IMG/VR virus record: IMGVR_UViG_3300024264_000006
Coordinates: 1 to 64,000 of that record
Length of the DNA stretch: 64,000 bases
DNA from: a virus
Direction: 5' to 3' (one strand)
Positions 29,249-46,117 of the stretch are shown in pieces (position 1 is the first letter of the stretch; every line of letters starts with the position of its first letter). The notes under the pieces were generated by a model that saw nothing but the letters and a program-made list of their open reading frames with translations, was not told where the DNA came from and ran no database searches. The position numbers and the translations under genes were made by a program.

Positions 29249-30367
29249 TTACGTCACTTCTCTAAGTTTTGTATATACTCTTTGTGCTACCCGATCAACG
29301 ACATCAGCTTTTAACACTTTGATTTGTTTTAGTTCGTCGTTCTTTTGTTTATAGTATTCCTGTACAGTAACAGCAGTAACATTAGATGGAACGTTTTGTG
29401 TGTATGGATCGATATCAACCCACTCACTTTCTATACGCAGTTCTGCATTATCAGCAGCCTCTACTGCACGTGCAGCTGTTTTCCTATCGGATGATACCAG
29501 AATGTTAGATACGTTGTCAAGATCAAATGCTACGTATTGAGTTTTTTCGTAGTGATGCACAGCTTCATATTGATGCGATTCTTTAAAGAGTTCAACCGCA
29601 ATTGTAATACCTGTTGTCTGATCGATGTAAGAAATAGACTCGGTATCACCAAAGTTATTATCTTTAGGGTTACCGACATACAACGAAGCAACCACGGTTA
29701 CTACTGTGTTTTCAATAAATGGAATGTTCTGGAATGTTGCTTCCTTTCCAAGTGAATCCAAACTTCTTTCAATTGTATCATCCATGATTACACCATCACG
29801 GTAAAACGTCCAGAGACTTGAACTGTGGAAAGTTTTACGGAATGAGTCATCTACTTCAATAGTAGCGAATCCTGTCTCTGATACTGATAAGGTGAATTGT
29901 TCTTGTTCATCCAATACTGTATTGGTGGTGTCAATTACCATTTGACCAAGTTCAGGGATTCTACGGACAATTGTTCCTATTGTACCAGATACCGATCCGG
30001 TCACAACTTGTCCTACACGAAACGCAAAGTCTCCTGTAGTAAAATCGTCTTTAGTTGTTACTGTCCTATGAGGATATCTAACCTTTACGATATCACTTAC
30101 CTTTTCCTGTGCGACAGGCCATCCAGATTCACGCAGATGATCATTCATTAAAAAGAATGTCCAATAGTAATCTGGACTACCGTAAAGTTCGTATGATACG
30201 TTATCCGGTCTGTCGCCCGATAGAATCTGATAACTTTCATAGAATGATAAGTCTTGCTTTACCTGATCAAGAATATCTACGTATGAATGAATTGCCTGAA
30301 ACAGAGCAGGACGTGTCTCTTCACCGAAGTTGTATAATAATGGTAAAAAACTTTGTATGTATTTCAT
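29249..30367 (-). CDS. 53: Baseplate wedge protein gp53-like
   Basis: Protein of 372 residues; T4 gp53 is 196, so a beta-rich insertion and C-terminal extension are present. Recognition: FYESYQILSGDRPDNVSYEL, YGSPDYYWTFFLMNDHLRES and GWPVAQEKVSDIVKVRYPHR near the N-terminus, the signature of gp53. The C-terminal 80 residues contain the helical tail (YKQKNDELKQIKVLKADVV). gp53 docks onto gp25-gp6-gp7 wedges to complete them. It lies 2 bases from gp27. Confidence 0.9.
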   Translation of the reverse strand: MKYIQSFLPLLYNFGEETRPALFQAIHSYVDILDQVKQDLSFYESYQILSGDRPDNVSYELYGSPDYYWTFFLMNDHLRESGWPVAQEKVSDIVKVRYPHRTVTTKDDFTTGDFAFRVGQVVTGSVSGTIGTIVRRIPELGQMVIDTTNTVLDEQEQFTLSVSETGFATIEVDDSFRKTFHSSSLWTFYRDGVIMDDTIERSLDSLGKEATFQNIPFIENTVVTVVASLYVGNPKDNNFGDTESISYIDQTTGITIAVELFKESHQYEAVHHYEKTQYVAFDLDNVSNILVSSDRKTAARAVEAADNAELRIESEWVDIDPYTQNVPSNVTAVTVQEYYKQKNDELKQIKVLKADVVDRVAQRVYTKLREVT

Positions 30368-32651: not shown

Positions 32652-33236
32652 GTGTCAAATATATTTAACAGATTAGAACTACAGGCATTCAGGGCTGGGA
32701 TTACACCCCGCACTAAGGAAAGCCGTGAGTGGTTCATGAAGAAAGCAAAGAATCTTCGATCTATCAACCGTGAAGCGTTGATGGATGAAGACCCACTGAA
32801 AAGACGAAGTAAACAGATTGTGGGTTCTATGCAGATGTTTTTCTATGACCCGAAACATAAAGACACACTACCATACTATGACACGTTTCCGTTGGTGGTT
32901 GTTGTAGGGCCTGCTGAAGGTGGGTTCTATGGTTTGAATTTACATTACCTTCCACCTATTCTACGTGCGAAGATGTTAGATGGTCTCATGGGTATAGCAG
33001 GAAGTAAATTAGATGATAACAGTAAATTCAAATTGTCTTATGCAATGTTGAAGAAGTCATCTAAGTTGAAGTATTTCGAACCTTGTTTCAAACACTACTT
33101 AAACAAACACGTACAGAGTAAGTTTGCAGAAGTACCAGCACCAGAGTGGGAGATTGCAACATTCTTACCAACAGCGAACTTCCGCAAACGTAATTCTAAG
33201 AAAGTTTACTACGATTCAAGGCAGATGTTAGGATGA
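32652..33236 (+). CDS. Conserved myovirus virion-associated protein (194 aa)
   Basis: Protein of 194 residues with a positively charged N-terminus: NRLELQAFRAGITPRTKESR, then MEEWFMKKAKNLRSIN-type basic helix. The body (PLVVVVGPAEGGFYGLNLHY, LPPILRAKMLDGLMG) is a compact alpha/beta fold without a recognised catalytic motif. Proteins of this outline stand directly before gp54 in marine T4-like phages; whether it protects DNA ends or is a tail component is not clear. It ends 4 bases inside the gp54 start and has its own late promoter. Confidence 0.7.
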   Translation: MSNIFNRLELQAFRAGITPRTKESREWFMKKAKNLRSINREALMDEDPLKRRSKQIVGSMQMFFYDPKHKDTLPYYDTFPLVVVVGPAEGGFYGLNLHYLPPILRAKMLDGLMGIAGSKLDDNSKFKLSYAMLKKSSKLKYFEPCFKHYLNKHVQSKFAEVPAPEWEIATFLPTANFRKRNSKKVYYDSRQMLG

Positions 33237-33955
33237 GCAATAGCATAGACGATTTAAAAGGTGCTGTAGGTGGTGGATCAGGGTTTGCATTACCCAACCT
33301 ATTCAAAGTAATACTACCTGAGATTGCAGGCATTGGGCCTAGAGAGTTAGAGGTACTCTGTAAAAGTGTTGTATTGCCTGGCAGACAGATTCAATCTCAA
33401 GATTATCAGACTGGTACTGCAACTAAAAAGATTGCAACCGGATATATCACACCAGATATTTCTTTAACATTTTATGTGATGAATGATCACAAAATTACTA
33501 GATACTTTGATGAATGGCAAAGATTGGCCCATGATCCTATAAACTACACGGTGGGTTATTATGAGGGTGAAGGCGGATATGGTCAAACCGTCACAATCGA
33601 ACAATTACAAAAGGGTGCTGGATTTTCCTTGTTTAAAAAACAACTTGGTTTTATGGATAAGGTTCCGCAATCAATTAAGAACCATCTACCGGACTTAGGA
33701 TTTATTGACCTCTCTCAAGGAGAGATAGATATAAGTCTTGGGTCACAAAGTAATTCAGTGAGGAAGATAGAGTTGCTTCAAGCCTATCCGACTTCCGTGA
33801 ATGAGATACAATTAGGTAACGATCAGAATGATCAAATTACTGAATTGAGTGTGCAGCTTTCATACAAAGACTGGTATGATAAAGGTGCAAAAGGGCCGAA
33901 TAGTGGTCTTGGTGATGCCATCATTGGTGGTGTACTGGGATCATTGTTGAATTAA
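33233..33955 (+). CDS. 54: Baseplate tail tube initiator gp54-like
   Basis: Protein of 240 residues (T4 gp54 320). The tail-tube fold is visible in ALPNLFKVILPEIAGIGPRE, VLPGRQIQSQDYQTGTATKK and ISLTFYVMNDHKITRYFDEW, patterns shared by gp19, gp48 and gp54. The C-terminal part (ITELSVQLSYKDWYDKG) is also conserved. gp54 sits on gp48 and templates the first tube hexamer. It is followed after 25 bases by gp26. Confidence 0.85.
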   Translation: MSNSIDDLKGAVGGGSGFALPNLFKVILPEIAGIGPRELEVLCKSVVLPGRQIQSQDYQTGTATKKIATGYITPDISLTFYVMNDHKITRYFDEWQRLAHDPINYTVGYYEGEGGYGQTVTIEQLQKGAGFSLFKKQLGFMDKVPQSIKNHLPDLGFIDLSQGEIDISLGSQSNSVRKIELLQAYPTSVNEIQLGNDQNDQITELSVQLSYKDWYDKGAKGPNSGLGDAIIGGVLGSLLN

Positions 33956-33980: not shown

Positions 33981-34688
33981 ATGGCGTTGCCAGTAATTAA
34001 TAGTAGTCCACAGTATGATTTGGTTATTCCGTCTACAGGACAAAAGGTTGAATTCAGGCCATACTTGGTCAAAGAAGAAAAGGTTCTTATGGTTGCATTT
34101 GAATCTGGAGACCAGAAACAAGCAACCAAGGCCATCGGTAATACATTGAATGCATGTATTACGACAGATGACGTAGATGTATTCGAACTCACAACATATG
34201 ATATCGAATACCTTTTCACGCAGATTAGAACGAAATCTGTTGGTGAAACATCAAGGGTAGTTATCCCTTGTACTTCTTGTGAACACAAGAATGACGTAGA
34301 GATTAATCTGGAGACCGTTCAAATTGAGAACGCAGAGAACTCTACAGAGACTATTAACATTACGGATGACATTCTTCTTGAATTGTGTTATCCGACATAC
34401 CGTAGAATTCTAGATCAAGAATCTACAGGTACAGGAGAGGATGGTCTAGTATTGGCAGAAACATGTGTTAAAGCCATCTTGACCGAAGAAGAAAGATTTG
34501 ACGTTACGGAATTGAGTGATGGAGAACTGAGAGAGTTCCTTGAAAATCTGACTACAGATCAGTTCAAGGGAATCACAGATTTCTTGATCAGGATTCCGAA
34601 ACTGGAACATACAGTGGAGTTCAATTGTGTTCAGTGTAAAGAAGCTAACACAACGACATTGAGAGGGATGAGAGATTTTTTATCCTAA
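33981..34688 (+). CDS. 26: Baseplate hub / tail chaperone protein gp26-like
   Basis: Protein of 235 residues (T4 gp26 208). KVEFRPYLVKEEKVLMVAFE near residue 22 is the gp26 signature. Two CxxC pairs, C97-C100 and C216-C219, suggest a structural zinc site. The gene lies between the tail-tube-like gp54 and the tape measure, exactly where lambda G lies between the major tail protein and gene H. The last three sense codons contain a T TTT TTA heptamer in register, from which a -1 shift enters a 61-codon frame (see the gp51 entry). Unshifted synthesis gives this 235-residue protein; the shifted product would be about 295 residues. Confidence 0.85.
   Translation: MALPVINSSPQYDLVIPSTGQKVEFRPYLVKEEKVLMVAFESGDQKQATKAIGNTLNACITTDDVDVFELTTYDIEYLFTQIRTKSVGETSRVVIPCTSCEHKNDVEINLETVQIENAENSTETINITDDILLELCYPTYRRILDQESTGTGEDGLVLAETCVKAILTEEERFDVTELSDGELREFLENLTTDQFKGITDFLIRIPKLEHTVEFNCVQCKEANTTTLRGMRDFLS
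34676..34682 (+). promoter_or_regulatory. Predicted -1 ribosomal frameshift site (T TTT TTA)
   Basis: Slippery heptamer with gp26 zero-frame codons GAT TTT TTA, followed by TCC TAA. After slipping back one base, reading continues as ATC CTA AAC through 61 codons to a TAG at 34865-34867. This heptamer is the X XXY YYZ form, with the same sequence as the HIV-1 gag-pol site. The downstream frame has no ATG or Shine-Dalgarno near its start. Confidence 0.75.
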
Positions 34689-34867
34689 ACCTTTCTCACG
34701 ATAATTTGGTCAATCATTACAAGACCAATTTTTCGTTAATGCAACATCATCATTACAGTTTGACTGAATTAGAAATGATGATGCCGTGGGAAAGGGAGAT
34801 ATACGTTAGTATGTTAATTGATTATGTTAAGGAAGAAAACGATAGATTAAAACAAATTAAAAAGTAG
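34682..34867 (+). CDS. 51: gp51-like C-terminal extension reached by -1 frameshift
   Basis: Sixty-one codons in the -1 frame relative to gp26. Its sequence begins ILNLSHDNLVNHYKTNFSLM and continues with a helix-rich end that includes MMMPWEREIYVSMLIDYVKE, a pattern typical of tail-assembly chaperone extensions that precede tape measures. No ATG lies upstream of residue 20 of this frame and no Shine-Dalgarno fits one. The upstream stop in this frame is a TAA about 35 bases before the heptamer. In T4, gp51 is a separate 249-residue hub-assembly factor; the match here is by position and by the helix motif, so the name is provisional. Independent expression from a weak non-ATG start remains possible. 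Confidence 0.65.
   Translation: MLNLSHDNLVNHYKTNFSLMQHHHYSLTELEMMMPWEREIYVSMLIDYVKEENDRLKQIKK
34698..34736 (+). other. Hairpin 3' of the slippery site
   Basis: TTGGTC (34706-34711) pairs perfectly with GACCAA (34723-34728) around an 11-base loop; the outer part, ACGA with TCGT and AA with TT, extends the stem across two T:T mismatches. It begins 15 bases after the heptamer, longer than the usual 5-9, so the stimulatory structure may be a pseudoknot using this stem. Confidence 0.55.
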
Positions 34868-34878
34868 AGTATTAATCA

Positions 34879-37191
34879 ATGGCAGATGCAACTTTAAAGG
34901 ACGTAATTGATCGTCTTAAGAGAGAAGGACAGTTAACTAGAAATAGTTCTACTGGCCATTCTATTAGGACAGTGAAAGAAGTTCTGGCAGAACAACACGG
35001 TCAAGACCGAACCTTGTTGCAAGACATGAAGGATGCGTTTGCCTCAATATCACGTTCTGAATCCGGAGTAGAGTCTGAAGAAACAGAAACCACTAATCCC
35101 TCTGGGCAAACCAAAGGGGACATCGAAGAAAGACAAAGAGAAACCGACGATTTTAATTCTAGTCTTCTAGAAGCTCAACTAGAAAATAACAAACTCATGA
35201 CCGATCTTATTAGCGTCATGAAAAAAGGTAATAAGGGTGGGAACAATATTGGTTTATTTGGCCGAGTGTTGGGTGGAGCAGCTGCTGGACTTGCATTAGG
35301 TGCTGGTGGTATCGCTGCACTTGGTTTAGGTATTGGTGCATTCTTTGTTGGTTTACAAGCAAGTGACCTTGCGATTGGTTTCTTTGATACCCCCCCAAAC
35401 TATGACAACATCATTGCTGGAGCGAAAGCTGTAGGTCAAATATTCAAAGAACTGGATGCTCAAACAATTGTATCTGTAGGTAGTCTGTTGCTTGCTGGTG
35501 GTTTTGCCGGTCTATTTGGTAAATTTGCTGGATTTAGTGTAGCTGGTGGTATGACTGCTATCGCAATGGGTATCGGTGGATTTTTTGCCGGTTTCCAACT
35601 TGCTGAAAAGGGTCTTACTTGGTTGGGAGTAGTGGATAAACTGGACAGTCTTAAAGCAGCTGCACGAGGTGTAGGTGACTTTTTCTCGGAATTCATAAAA
35701 CATGAAAACGCCTTAGAAATGGCCGGAGTAATGTTAGGGGGAGCAGGATTTGCAGCTCTCTTTGGTGTTGGAAAATCTGTAAGCGCAGCTATTGGTATGA
35801 CATTGATAGGTGCTGGAATTGCCGGATTCTTTGCTTCGTTTGTCGGGTTAGATGCTCTTTCTGGAGCACTTGGTGCAAATGGTAGCAATCTTGGCCCCAT
35901 GATGGAGAACATTGCTAAAGGTTTAACAGCATTCTTTAGTCTGCCTGCGGCCGCAATAGCTGGTCTTTTTGTTGCGGGTGGACTATTTGGTTATGCGCCT
36001 GGTTTGGGTGTTAAAGCTGGAGTCGGTCTTGCAATTGTAGGCGCCGGTCTAGGAGCATTCTTTGCGGGATTTGGTGCAGCTGACGCCGTAGCTGGTCTAC
36101 TTAGAAGTGATGGTAGTACCATGGCATCATTGATGACTAACATGGCCACTGGATTGTCTGCACTTGCAGAAGTCGATGGTATGGCATTACTTGGTACTGC
36201 TGGTGCGATGTTAGCGATGGGGCCTGCTATGCTTGCATTCTTGGGAGCTAAAGGATTGCTGGGAGTAGCTGACAGTTTCGCCGCCATCAAAGATTTTGTT
36301 GGTGGTCTATTTGGTGCTGAGGAAGGTAAAAGTCTTTTTGAAAAGGTTGCTGATTCTCTTAATGCATTTGAGGACGTAGACGGTAAGAACCTTCAACATA
36401 TTGCGGATTCTGTCCAACCTCTTATTGATTATGCACACGCACTAGAATATTTTGAAGGCATGAATGTAGATCAAATAACAGAAAAACTCAAAGACCTTGG
36501 GTTAGTTATGGGTGACATCAACAAACTCATGATCGCCTTATATGAAGGCGGAGAAATAGTAGATGGTGTCTTTAAGGGTGTAACGGTCAAGGTTGGATTG
36601 AAAGATGTTCCAACAGAAGAGATAGAAGCCAAGTTGAAACCTATTGCTGTAGCGTTGGACATTGATACATCATCGCTTGACGGAAAGGTATTGACAATCG
36701 GTGCTGAACTGGCAGGTCAGTTGAATGATGTCGTTGTTGAAAATAACGTTACTGGCGATGCGACTGAAACTTCAACTAACCTAGTGATTCCAGAAGAACT
36801 TCGTACCCTTGACAATCCGTATATACCCGATACAGATGAGATGAAAGAGAATTCGACAGAAGGGACGCCACCAAACTTTAAATTAGAAACCCCTCCACCT
36901 GTCTTTGATGGGTTGAAGGTAGAGTCTCCAAAGGTTGAAATCCATGCGCCTAATCTCACACCACCAACAGACATAGAGGCGCCACAAGCATCTAAAAGAG
37001 AAATACAAAATATGGTGTTGGGACAACAACAGCAAGAACTTGCTACAACAACAAGCAACAATAACATAAATGTTATTGACGCTAAACAAACCGCTGTTAC
37101 CACAAATAGCAGCAGTTCATCAACAACAAACTTGATAGGTTCAAGGGGTTCTTCCATGAATGGTAGTGCTCCGTCATGGCGAATTGGATAA
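34879..37191 (+). CDS. 29: Tape measure protein gp29-like
   Basis: Protein of 770 residues (T4 gp29 590). The N-terminal 100 residues are charged (TLKDVIDRLKREGQLTRNSS). Residues about 120-480 contain about five repeated hydrophobic modules of 75-90 residues, each with Gly/Ala-rich helices ending in the pattern IGGFFAGF, followed by a charged linker (for example GVVDKLDSLKAAARGVGDFF). The C-terminal 250 residues are Pro/Thr/Asn-rich and disordered-looking. Tape measures set tail length at roughly 0.15 nm per residue, suggesting about 115 nm. Its position behind gp26/gp51 supports this. Confidence 0.85.
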   Translation: MADATLKDVIDRLKREGQLTRNSSTGHSIRTVKEVLAEQHGQDRTLLQDMKDAFASISRSESGVESEETETTNPSGQTKGDIEERQRETDDFNSSLLEAQLENNKLMTDLISVMKKGNKGGNNIGLFGRVLGGAAAGLALGAGGIAALGLGIGAFFVGLQASDLAIGFFDTPPNYDNIIAGAKAVGQIFKELDAQTIVSVGSLLLAGGFAGLFGKFAGFSVAGGMTAIAMGIGGFFAGFQLAEKGLTWLGVVDKLDSLKAAARGVGDFFSEFIKHENALEMAGVMLGGAGFAALFGVGKSVSAAIGMTLIGAGIAGFFASFVGLDALSGALGANGSNLGPMMENIAKGLTAFFSLPAAAIAGLFVAGGLFGYAPGLGVKAGVGLAIVGAGLGAFFAGFGAADAVAGLLRSDGSTMASLMTNMATGLSALAEVDGMALLGTAGAMLAMGPAMLAFLGAKGLLGVADSFAAIKDFVGGLFGAEEGKSLFEKVADSLNAFEDVDGKNLQHIADSVQPLIDYAHALEYFEGMNVDQITEKLKDLGLVMGDINKLMIALYEGGEIVDGVFKGVTVKVGLKDVPTEEIEAKLKPIAVALDIDTSSLDGKVLTIGAELAGQLNDVVVENNVTGDATETSTNLVIPEELRTLDNPYIPDTDEMKENSTEGTPPNFKLETPPPVFDGLKVESPKVEIHAPNLTPPTDIEAPQASKREIQNMVLGQQQQELATTTSNNNINVIDAKQTAVTTNSSSSSTTNLIGSRGSSMNGSAPSWRIG

Positions 37192-44345: not shown

Positions 44346-45245
44346 ATGAAATATAAGAACAAATCAGAATTTATTGTTCAGGGTGTTGCGGAAGACGGTG
44401 TTGTCAATTCCGTCATGATTCATCACGAGACTAAGAATGAGATAATCGCACCAGCTATAGGTGCTATCAAGTCACACAAACTAAACCATGAACCCGGCTT
44501 AATCATAGATTCAGATGTTATCAAAAACACTGTACTGACTCGTTCTCCTATTACATGTAACACAATTCAGGGTCTCCAGTCATCAGCGGATCATGATCGT
44601 CCTTTAGAAGTATTGTTTGTTGGTTACTACGATCAAGGCAGACAACTTAACTGGTTGATGGACAATCACAGTGAAACCAACTTGGTCTATAACAAAGATG
44701 GTATTCCTTACGATTCAAGAGAGATTTCTCAGATTGTTAAGTATGAGATTGCCTCACAATTTCACCCAGTCATTGCTGACCAATATCCCTATAACATGAA
44801 TGTCACTGTCGTGGAACCACCTGAGTCTAGACACCAAGGTGCAATACATGATGTCTATGATCGATTCAACATAACAAAACTCACATGCAACAAACAGTTC
44901 AAGTTTGGATCAACATCTTGGAAACTAACAGAGACTCCTGCTCGACAATTTGATGTTGTAGTGTTCACGTATGTTCCTAAGAAGTATGATGATACTACGT
45001 TTGATACAAGTTATGTTGCAGAGCGTTTAGGTTCAGCCATTAGACCAGATACAATTTTACTTGATGTTGACATTCAAGGTGAAGACGATGAACTTAGATT
45101 CTCAAACAGAGAGAACAAACTCGATATTAGTCCTCAAATAGTTAAGGCATTCTCTACACGTGCAGAATGGGATGAGGACGTTATTACTGGAAGATCAACC
45201 CATTTCAAATGGGTTTCAAAAGGTATCAGTGCGTATCAGATTTAA
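44346..45245 (+). CDS. Unknown protein (299 aa), Rossmann-like central segment
   Basis: Not recognised. A central segment PLEVLFVGYYDQGRQLNWLM and the later QFDVVVFTYVPKKYDD... DTILLDVDIQGEDDELRF suggest an alpha/beta fold with a nucleotide or SAM-type pocket, but no complete motif is seen. No membrane segments. The gene follows the 87-residue gene closely and converges with the P-loop kinase gene; their stops overlap by 4 bases. Confidence 0.6.
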   Translation: MKYKNKSEFIVQGVAEDGVVNSVMIHHETKNEIIAPAIGAIKSHKLNHEPGLIIDSDVIKNTVLTRSPITCNTIQGLQSSADHDRPLEVLFVGYYDQGRQLNWLMDNHSETNLVYNKDGIPYDSREISQIVKYEIASQFHPVIADQYPYNMNVTVVEPPESRHQGAIHDVYDRFNITKLTCNKQFKFGSTSWKLTETPARQFDVVVFTYVPKKYDDTTFDTSYVAERLGSAIRPDTILLDVDIQGEDDELRFSNRENKLDISPQIVKAFSTRAEWDEDVITGRSTHFKWVSKGISAYQI

Positions 45246-46117
45246 TCCCAGTCTACGTTCTTCGGAACGTATGCTTTGATCTTCTGACGAATCGACTTAT
45301 CTAGTTTCTCTATACTAAGAGGATTCTTACCGGAACGTTTGACATAGAAGTAGTTTGCATCTTTAACATACGAACCACCCTTGCCTGACTTGACTAGTTT
45401 TGCATCAACACCAACCTTGTTGAATGCGAACACGATGTCTCCGTCCATGTATCTTTTCAACCTAGTGCCCATGTTGATGATGTCGCCCATAGTGTTTGCG
45501 GCACCACGGTGAGTGTTGATTAGAATCTCTGAAGGAACTGTACGTGCACGTTTGGCATTCTGTGCTTGTGCAACTTCGATGTCGTTCACTACCCATACGA
45601 TATGGATGTTCTTCTTGTCGTAACCTAACTTCGAAGCATCCTTTGCAATCTTCTCTAACTTGTCTAGTGACTTGAGTGTCATGTCAAAGATAATGTTGGG
45701 TTTACGATCTTCTGGAGCAGCAAGAACACCACGGTAAAACGCTCGTTCTTTACGTTGATCGATTTTTAGAAAATTGCCCATGATATCGTGAAGCTTCTCT
45801 ACATTCTTAGGGTCTTTAAGATTCTTGGAAAGGTCTTCGATGTCTACACCAAGTTCTGTGGCGACACGTCTCTTAATAGCAGGAGTCTTTGATGCTAATG
45901 TTTTTAGTTCATCAACATCAAAAACTTTGCCTTCCAGACCGACTAGATTACTTAAAACAAATCCTTTACCAGAGCCAGCACCACCCGCCATAAGAACAAT
46001 GTGTCCGTAGTTGGGATAGGCTTGACCGCCAAAGGTAATGAGTTTTTCTAGAAGAGTTTCTGCCTCTTGCGAAGCATACAAAATCTCTTCATGCAAAAAA
46101 GAGTTAAAGGATTGCAT
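45242..46117 (-). CDS. P-loop kinase, zeta-toxin-like
   Basis: Protein of 291 residues. HIVLMAGGAGSGKGFVLSNL at about residue 38 is a Walker A loop (GxxGSGKG) with the beta-strand before it. KPNIIFDMTLKSLDKLEKIA gives a plausible Walker B strand, followed by NIHIVWVVNDIEVAQAQNA. This architecture resembles zeta-toxin-like and gluconate-kinase-like phage proteins. A late promoter lies 29 bases upstream. The substrate is unknown; phosphorylation of a nucleotide-sugar or of host UDP-GlcNAc are two options. Confidence 0.75.
   Translation of the reverse strand: MQSFNSFLHEEILYASQEAETLLEKLITFGGQAYPNYGHIVLMAGGAGSGKGFVLSNLVGLEGKVFDVDELKTLASKTPAIKRRVATELGVDIEDLSKNLKDPKNVEKLHDIMGNFLKIDQRKERAFYRGVLAAPEDRKPNIIFDMTLKSLDKLEKIAKDASKLGYDKKNIHIVWVVNDIEVAQAQNAKRARTVPSEILINTHRGAANTMGDIINMGTRLKRYMDGDIVFAFNKVGVDAKLVKSGKGGSYVKDANYFYVKRSGKNPLSIEKLDKSIRQKIKAYVPKNVDWD

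Follow-up and report, generated by a model that had tools for sequence, protein, structure and literature searches.

A probable -1 frameshift at the end of gp26 in a marine T4-like phage may yield short and long tail assembly chaperones

The DNA studied here (the "window") is a 64,000-nucleotide stretch of a 147,636-bp virus record, IMGVR_UViG_3300024264_000006. A sequence-only reading of it had proposed that gp26 is fused to gp51 by a -1 ribosomal frameshift upstream of the tape measure gene. The features that bear on this proposal are listed here in window coordinates.

33233..33955, + strand: tail-tube-like protein (gp54/gp19 type), upstream of gp26; PHROG 45 "tail tube", E=3.8e-32
33981..34688, + strand: gp26, probable short tail assembly chaperone (TAC-N), 235 aa; PF12322, E=1.6e-55; PHROG 150; Shine-Dalgarno (SD) sequence AGGAG upstream
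34662..34668, + strand: internal SD-like AGAGGGA, candidate upstream stimulator by anti-SD pairing, 7 nt before the heptamer
34676..34682, + strand: slippery heptamer T TTT TTA
34682..34867, + strand: -1 frame extension (TAC-C, "gp51"), 61 codons plus TAG; PHROG 634, E=1.2e-25; C-terminal part of PHROG 150; purifying selection
34686..34688, + strand: 0-frame stop TAA, one codon after the heptamer
34690..34700, + strand: 5' arm of a predicted long-range RNA helix, beginning 7 nt past the heptamer
34698..34736, + strand: local hairpin of the sequence-only reading
34785..34795, + strand: 3' arm of the long-range helix, from folding of a longer stretch and comparison with relatives
34879..37191, + strand: presumed tape measure protein, 770 aa, with Gly/Ala-rich hydrophobic repeats; by position, length and composition only

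The anatomy described in the sequence-only reading matches the DNA base for base: gp26 ends GAT TTT TTA TCC TAA, so that 34676-34682 read T_TTT_TTA in register. The -1 frame is indeed open from past a TAA at 34646-34648 to the TAG at 34865-34867, leaving 61 codons after the slip (34682-34864), and its first ATG is, as had been said, the 20th post-slip codon (34739) and lacks an SD sequence. The sole earlier start-like codon in this frame, a TTG at 34706, likewise lacks one. The proposed gene order—tail tube, gp26, shifted frame, tape measure—stands in part: the profile match supports the tail-tube gene, whereas the tape measure gene is presumed, having drawn no confident family match in Pfam and PHROG profile searches. 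In the profile search with gp26, residues 1-234 aligned to positions 5-232 of PHROG 150 (191 bits). The protein also carries paired CxxC motifs, at residues 97 and 216, with weak Pfam zinc-ribbon matches; these motifs suggest a zinc ribbon. T4 gp26 and the listed close relatives share them; the listed P-SSM2-type loci and the single listed Melnitz-type locus lack them.

How often would such a heptamer arise by chance at the end of a gene? T6 in slippery register was counted in 60 proxy genes (the window's longer ORFs), which contain 19,368 codon junctions. It occurred at four of them, so the last four codons of any one gene would contain it with a probability of about 8e-4. In two ORFs, 29251-30367 and 45244-46117 (minus strand), an in-register T6 heptamer occurs close behind the first start-like codon (base 17), and the true start may lie farther downstream.

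Alignment of gp26 3' ends from relatives, the check that the sequence-only reading had suggested, found the heptamer widely conserved. TTTTTTN was present in 80/80 loci of a first IMG/VR scan, and at 78/78, 76/76 and 2/2 readable junctions in scans seeded with P-SSM2, Melnitz and a vibriophage, respectively; pooled, the four scans give 236 of 236 IMG/VR loci with a readable junction, a count that related sequences inflate. Because the heptamer is conserved in all of these loci, a chance origin is excluded. The 0-frame stop lies zero or one codon past it in the 80 close relatives of the first scan. Among 23 sampled GenBank phages, 18 carry the heptamer; they belong to Kyanoviridae, Eurybiavirus, Emdodecavirus, Pootjesviridae, Schizotequatrovirus, Busanvirus and Ishigurovirus or are unclassified.

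The five GenBank phages that lack the heptamer are T4, Erwinia phage Cronus, Acinetobacter phage Konradin, Vibrio phage D506 and Listeria phage LIS04. T4 and Cronus have genes 26 and 51 as two separate genes in divergent orientation, and their gp26 retains the Phe-Phe pair but spells it TTC TTT. These two phages constitute a natural control: the T6 tract is gone where the genes are separate. In D506 (locus L092, 2755-2950), A_CTT_TTC replaces T6, TAATG occurs at the stop and the -1 frame is extension-like; a switch to reinitiation is possible. In LIS04 (Thornevirus; locus L096, 2696-2920), a gp26-like gene is followed by an extension-like stretch in the +1 frame, with no -1 heptamer, which points to either a different shift or a separate gene.

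To what do the short and fused products correspond? The extension matched PHROG 634, "baseplate hub assembly catalyst", as well as the end of PHROG 150. The match of the fusion to PHROG 150 was continuous, with residues 1-279 aligned to positions 5-276 of 282 at 229 bits (compared with 191 for gp26 alone). T4 gp51 covers positions 13-280 of this profile, and T4 gp26 covers 14-235. The fusion thus spans PHROG 150 from one end to the other, as T4 gp51 does, and gp26 stops where T4 gp26 does; the short form therefore corresponds to T4 gp26 and the fusion to T4 gp51. In blastp, the short form matched T4 gp26 (E=8e-11) and the fused form T4 gp51 (E=1.7e-5); PF12322 and PHROG 150 are shared with the T4 proteins. 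The two T4 genes lie on opposite strands, yet their products match each other (blastp E=3e-6) and both match PF12322; by this evidence they are paralogues.

The proposed gp26-gp51 fusion thus needs one amendment: the fused pair is homologous to the T4 proteins, but it is the whole fusion, not the 61-residue extension, that equates with T4 gp51. The "gp51" of cyanophages is evidently the extension only. We hold with high confidence that gp26 is a short chaperone (TAC-N, lambda-G-like) and the fusion a long one (TAC-NC, GT-like). With an AlphaFold2 model of TAC-N only (pLDDT 87.9), Foldseek returned no significant match to a solved TAC; the HK97 TAC 2ob9 appeared at a non-significant level (probability 0.30-0.33, TM (target) 0.38-0.44, E > 1). 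A profile search against solved structures gave no match.

The RNA around the heptamer was also scrutinized. The strong hairpin that had been noted downstream is real: its arms (34698-34711 and 34723-34736) are 86% complementary, with a folding energy of -11.1 kcal/mol and a z of -4.2. It is not, however, the better-conserved candidate for a stimulator. Its arms begin 15 nt past the heptamer, and its 6-bp core (34706-34711/34723-34728) is paired in 83% of cells in the relatives. Folding of a longer stretch revealed an 11-bp helix (34690-34700/34785-34795) that starts 7 nt after the heptamer and encloses 84 nt of the sequence that encodes the extension itself. Across 43 distinct relatives, pairing is kept in 94.9% of the helix cells, compared with 44-79% for slid versions; in a second, more divergent set, the figure is 89.7%. 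In the 43 relatives, three of the pairs show changes on both sides (33 cells vs. 13.8 in shuffles). With the protein held fixed, the observed pairing was 95.4%, vs. 80.5% under synonymous recoding and 91.9% under within-column permutation of synonymous codons. Correction for the tree left about 3.4, 3.1 and 2.8 independent same-direction comparisons for the three pairs, individually non-significant, and almost never one in the opposite direction. The long-range helix is, on these comparisons, the better-conserved downstream candidate; the local hairpin, with its core paired at 83% vs. 95% and its greater distance from the heptamer, was rejected as the main stimulator.

The P-SSM2-type phages lack the long-range helix. 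Their RNA can instead form an 11-bp hairpin that begins 5 nt past the heptamer and is 94.3% paired, with slight covariation. In each of the three large phage sets, pairing of the SD-like element upstream of the heptamer with the anti-SD is stronger than expected from synonymous recoding (observed/recoded: -6.26/-5.20, -8.79/-5.75 and -6.83/-5.49 kcal/mol). The layout is like that of dnaX, with an SD-like element upstream, the heptamer, and a structure within 5-9 nt downstream (here the helix, at 7 nt). Together, these elements appear to be a dnaX-like three-part signal and are candidates for a stimulatory role. A broader proposal is that this signal controls chaperone frameshifting, that its downstream element was swapped between lineages (the long-range helix in the window and Melnitz groups, the local hairpin in P-SSM2-type cyanophages) and that shifted ribosomes could also feed translation of the next gene; we consider the chances of its being right about even.

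Does the -1 frame encode protein? In each of 49 distinct close relatives (49/49), the scanned 150 nt held no stop in this frame, and both other frames always contained one. Single-base codon differences among these 49 loci were 16,441 synonymous vs. 6,706 non-synonymous in the -1 frame; in the other two frames, the ratios were 4,488:21,002 and 1,573:23,543. These counts are pairwise, hence non-independent, but the contrast is large. By this measure, the -1 frame evidently encodes a protein under purifying selection. The opening of this frame coincides with the heptamer, to within a few bases, in C48C1, Melnitz, phiWae14, avDM6, P-HM2 and L026, so the site of the shift can be pinned to the heptamer.

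The same protein could, in principle, come from a small gene of its own (gp51), with an independent start or with reinitiation after termination at the gp26 stop. The extension is frequently annotated so in databases, and TAATG or TGATG occurs at the stop in PVA23, phi-ST2, phiM7, RL2RES and Atu_ph04; in P-SSM2, an ATG lies 2 nt past it. Against this, no ATG occurs before codon 18-20 in the window and almost all close relatives, and an SD sequence is absent with rare exceptions. The conserved residues LSHDNLVNHYKTNF sit upstream of that first ATG, and a LSHDNLVNHYKTNFSLMQHHHYSL motif upstream of or around it is also conserved in the relatives. In most sampled P-SSM2-type cyanophages, the annotated gp51 ATG is buried in the conserved hairpin stem. 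Reinitiation, moreover, would leave the conservation of T6 and the continuity of the PHROG 150 match unexplained. We therefore judge a separate gene very unlikely as the source of the extension, and for the window's own group we rejected an independent gp51 gene, since it would have neither a start nor an SD sequence and would leave out residues that are conserved ahead of the first ATG. Where the stop overlaps a start codon, as TAATG or TGATG, a lineage could produce a separate extension protein in addition.

Slippage by the polymerase on the T6 tract might also produce the fused frame, and some relatives do have longer runs (7-8 T). Transcriptional slippage, however, needs no heptamer register, no helix at 7 nt and no SD-like element, all of which are conserved, and six Ts are few for polymerase slippage; we regard it as more improbable still. 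The chance that a sequencing error or a decayed gene mimics a frameshift, for which nothing speaks except the frame change itself, is negligible: the same junction recurs in 236 contigs and 18 GenBank phages, a conservation that rules out sequencing error.

The reading we favor, and consider very probable, is that one mRNA yields a short chaperone and a long form via programmed -1 ribosomal frameshifting at T TTT TTA. Most ribosomes would stop at 34686, releasing TAC-N (235 aa). A ribosome held by the SD-like pairing on one side and facing the helix on the other may pause, whereupon both tRNAs could re-pair one base back on the heptamer. A minority would thus slip and add 61 residues, giving TAC-NC (295 aa by the standard model). 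By analogy to lambda G/GT, both forms would jointly cover the tape measure protein as the tail is assembled. What the data display directly is the anatomy of the sequence; from it we infer the slip, the ratio of products and the chaperone action. The suggestion that this T4-type phage has a G/GT-like pair is upheld: relatives keep the heptamer, the -1 frame and the gene order (with a presumed tape measure gene), and homology between the fusion and T4 gp51 extends from one end to the other.

The presumed tape measure gene begins 11 nt past the -1 frame stop (34865-34879) and has no SD sequence. In most cases, the next ORF of close relatives and of P-SSM2-type phages likewise starts near the -1 stop (-11 to +11 nt), again mostly without one. 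By the same crude count, however, 37/61 window ORFs lack an SD sequence at the first ATG. The idea that translation of the tape measure gene is obligately coupled was rejected, as its missing SD sequence is a weak argument when more than half of the window's ORFs are in the same state. Coupling of the next gene to the -1 frame is a possibility; if true, it could tie the amount of that gene's product to that of the long chaperone.

These results bear on annotation. Cyanophage and marine vibriophage gp51, in which the N-terminal ~200 residues of the T4 protein are absent, has been treated as reduced (Sullivan et al. 2010, PMC3037559). Its shortness in cyanophages, about 20% of the length of T4 gp51 (PMC3037559), is explained if the extension is the frameshifted end of gp26, not a reduced gene. 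None of the 18 heptamer-bearing GenBank records has the fusion as a joined gene; the extension is separate, truncated or missing there. Among six such records (loci L263-L267 and L082), it is unannotated in S-WAM1, ACG-2014b, ACG-2014d and S-CAM4, and just its last ~30-35 residues are annotated in P-HM2 and C48C1. Neither the long-range helix nor the SD-like element turned up in our literature search; the full text of Vladimirov et al. 2022 lay outside that search. As far as could be checked, the conserved long-range helix with its compensatory changes, the P-SSM2-type local hairpin and the SD-like element are new here. The T4 lineage, with two paralogous genes in place of one frameshifted gene, offers a natural comparison of two routes to the same protein pair.

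Several known systems invite comparison. The -1 signal of E. coli dnaX consists of an upstream SD-like element, an A AAA AAG heptamer and a downstream local hairpin, and its shift leads to a shorter product. The window shares the three-part arrangement but has T TTT TTA, a long-range helix and a longer product. In lambda, gpG and gpGT are reportedly a short and a long chaperone made from one gene by -1 frameshifting; the slippery heptamer there is G GGA AAG. Lambda places this gene after a tail-tube gene and directly before the tape measure gene; gp26 of the window follows a tail-tube-like gene and precedes the presumed tape measure gene. The window phage differs in its heptamer, its longer short form and its paired CxxC motifs, and the likeness is one of gene layout. 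Among T4-like phages, frameshifting is said to be conserved in several groups, T4 itself using genes 26 and 51. T4 gp26 and gp51 are homologous to the window's short and fused products, respectively, but are encoded by two separate, divergent genes without the heptamer. The TAC locus of Vandenendeviridae/Andersonviridae (phage Adele, PMC12846349) is likewise myoviral, with a conserved poly-T near the end of TAC-N and an open -1 frame; its motif is given as GTTTTT, and the likeness is one of motif and frame. That paper, citing Vladimirov et al. 2022, mentions that TAC-N genes of T4-like phages contain poly-T slippery sequences, and another (PMC10885494, citing the same work) states that in some T4-like phages one short and one longer fused gene replace frameshifting. 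The central idea is thus already published in kind, as TAC frameshifting in T4-like phages (Vladimirov, Gautam & Davidson, Virology 2022, 566:9-15). That study reportedly assigns the gp26 family as TAC-N and gp51 as TAC-NC, as we do, and proposes frameshifting for some T4-like lineages but separate genes for the group of T4 itself.
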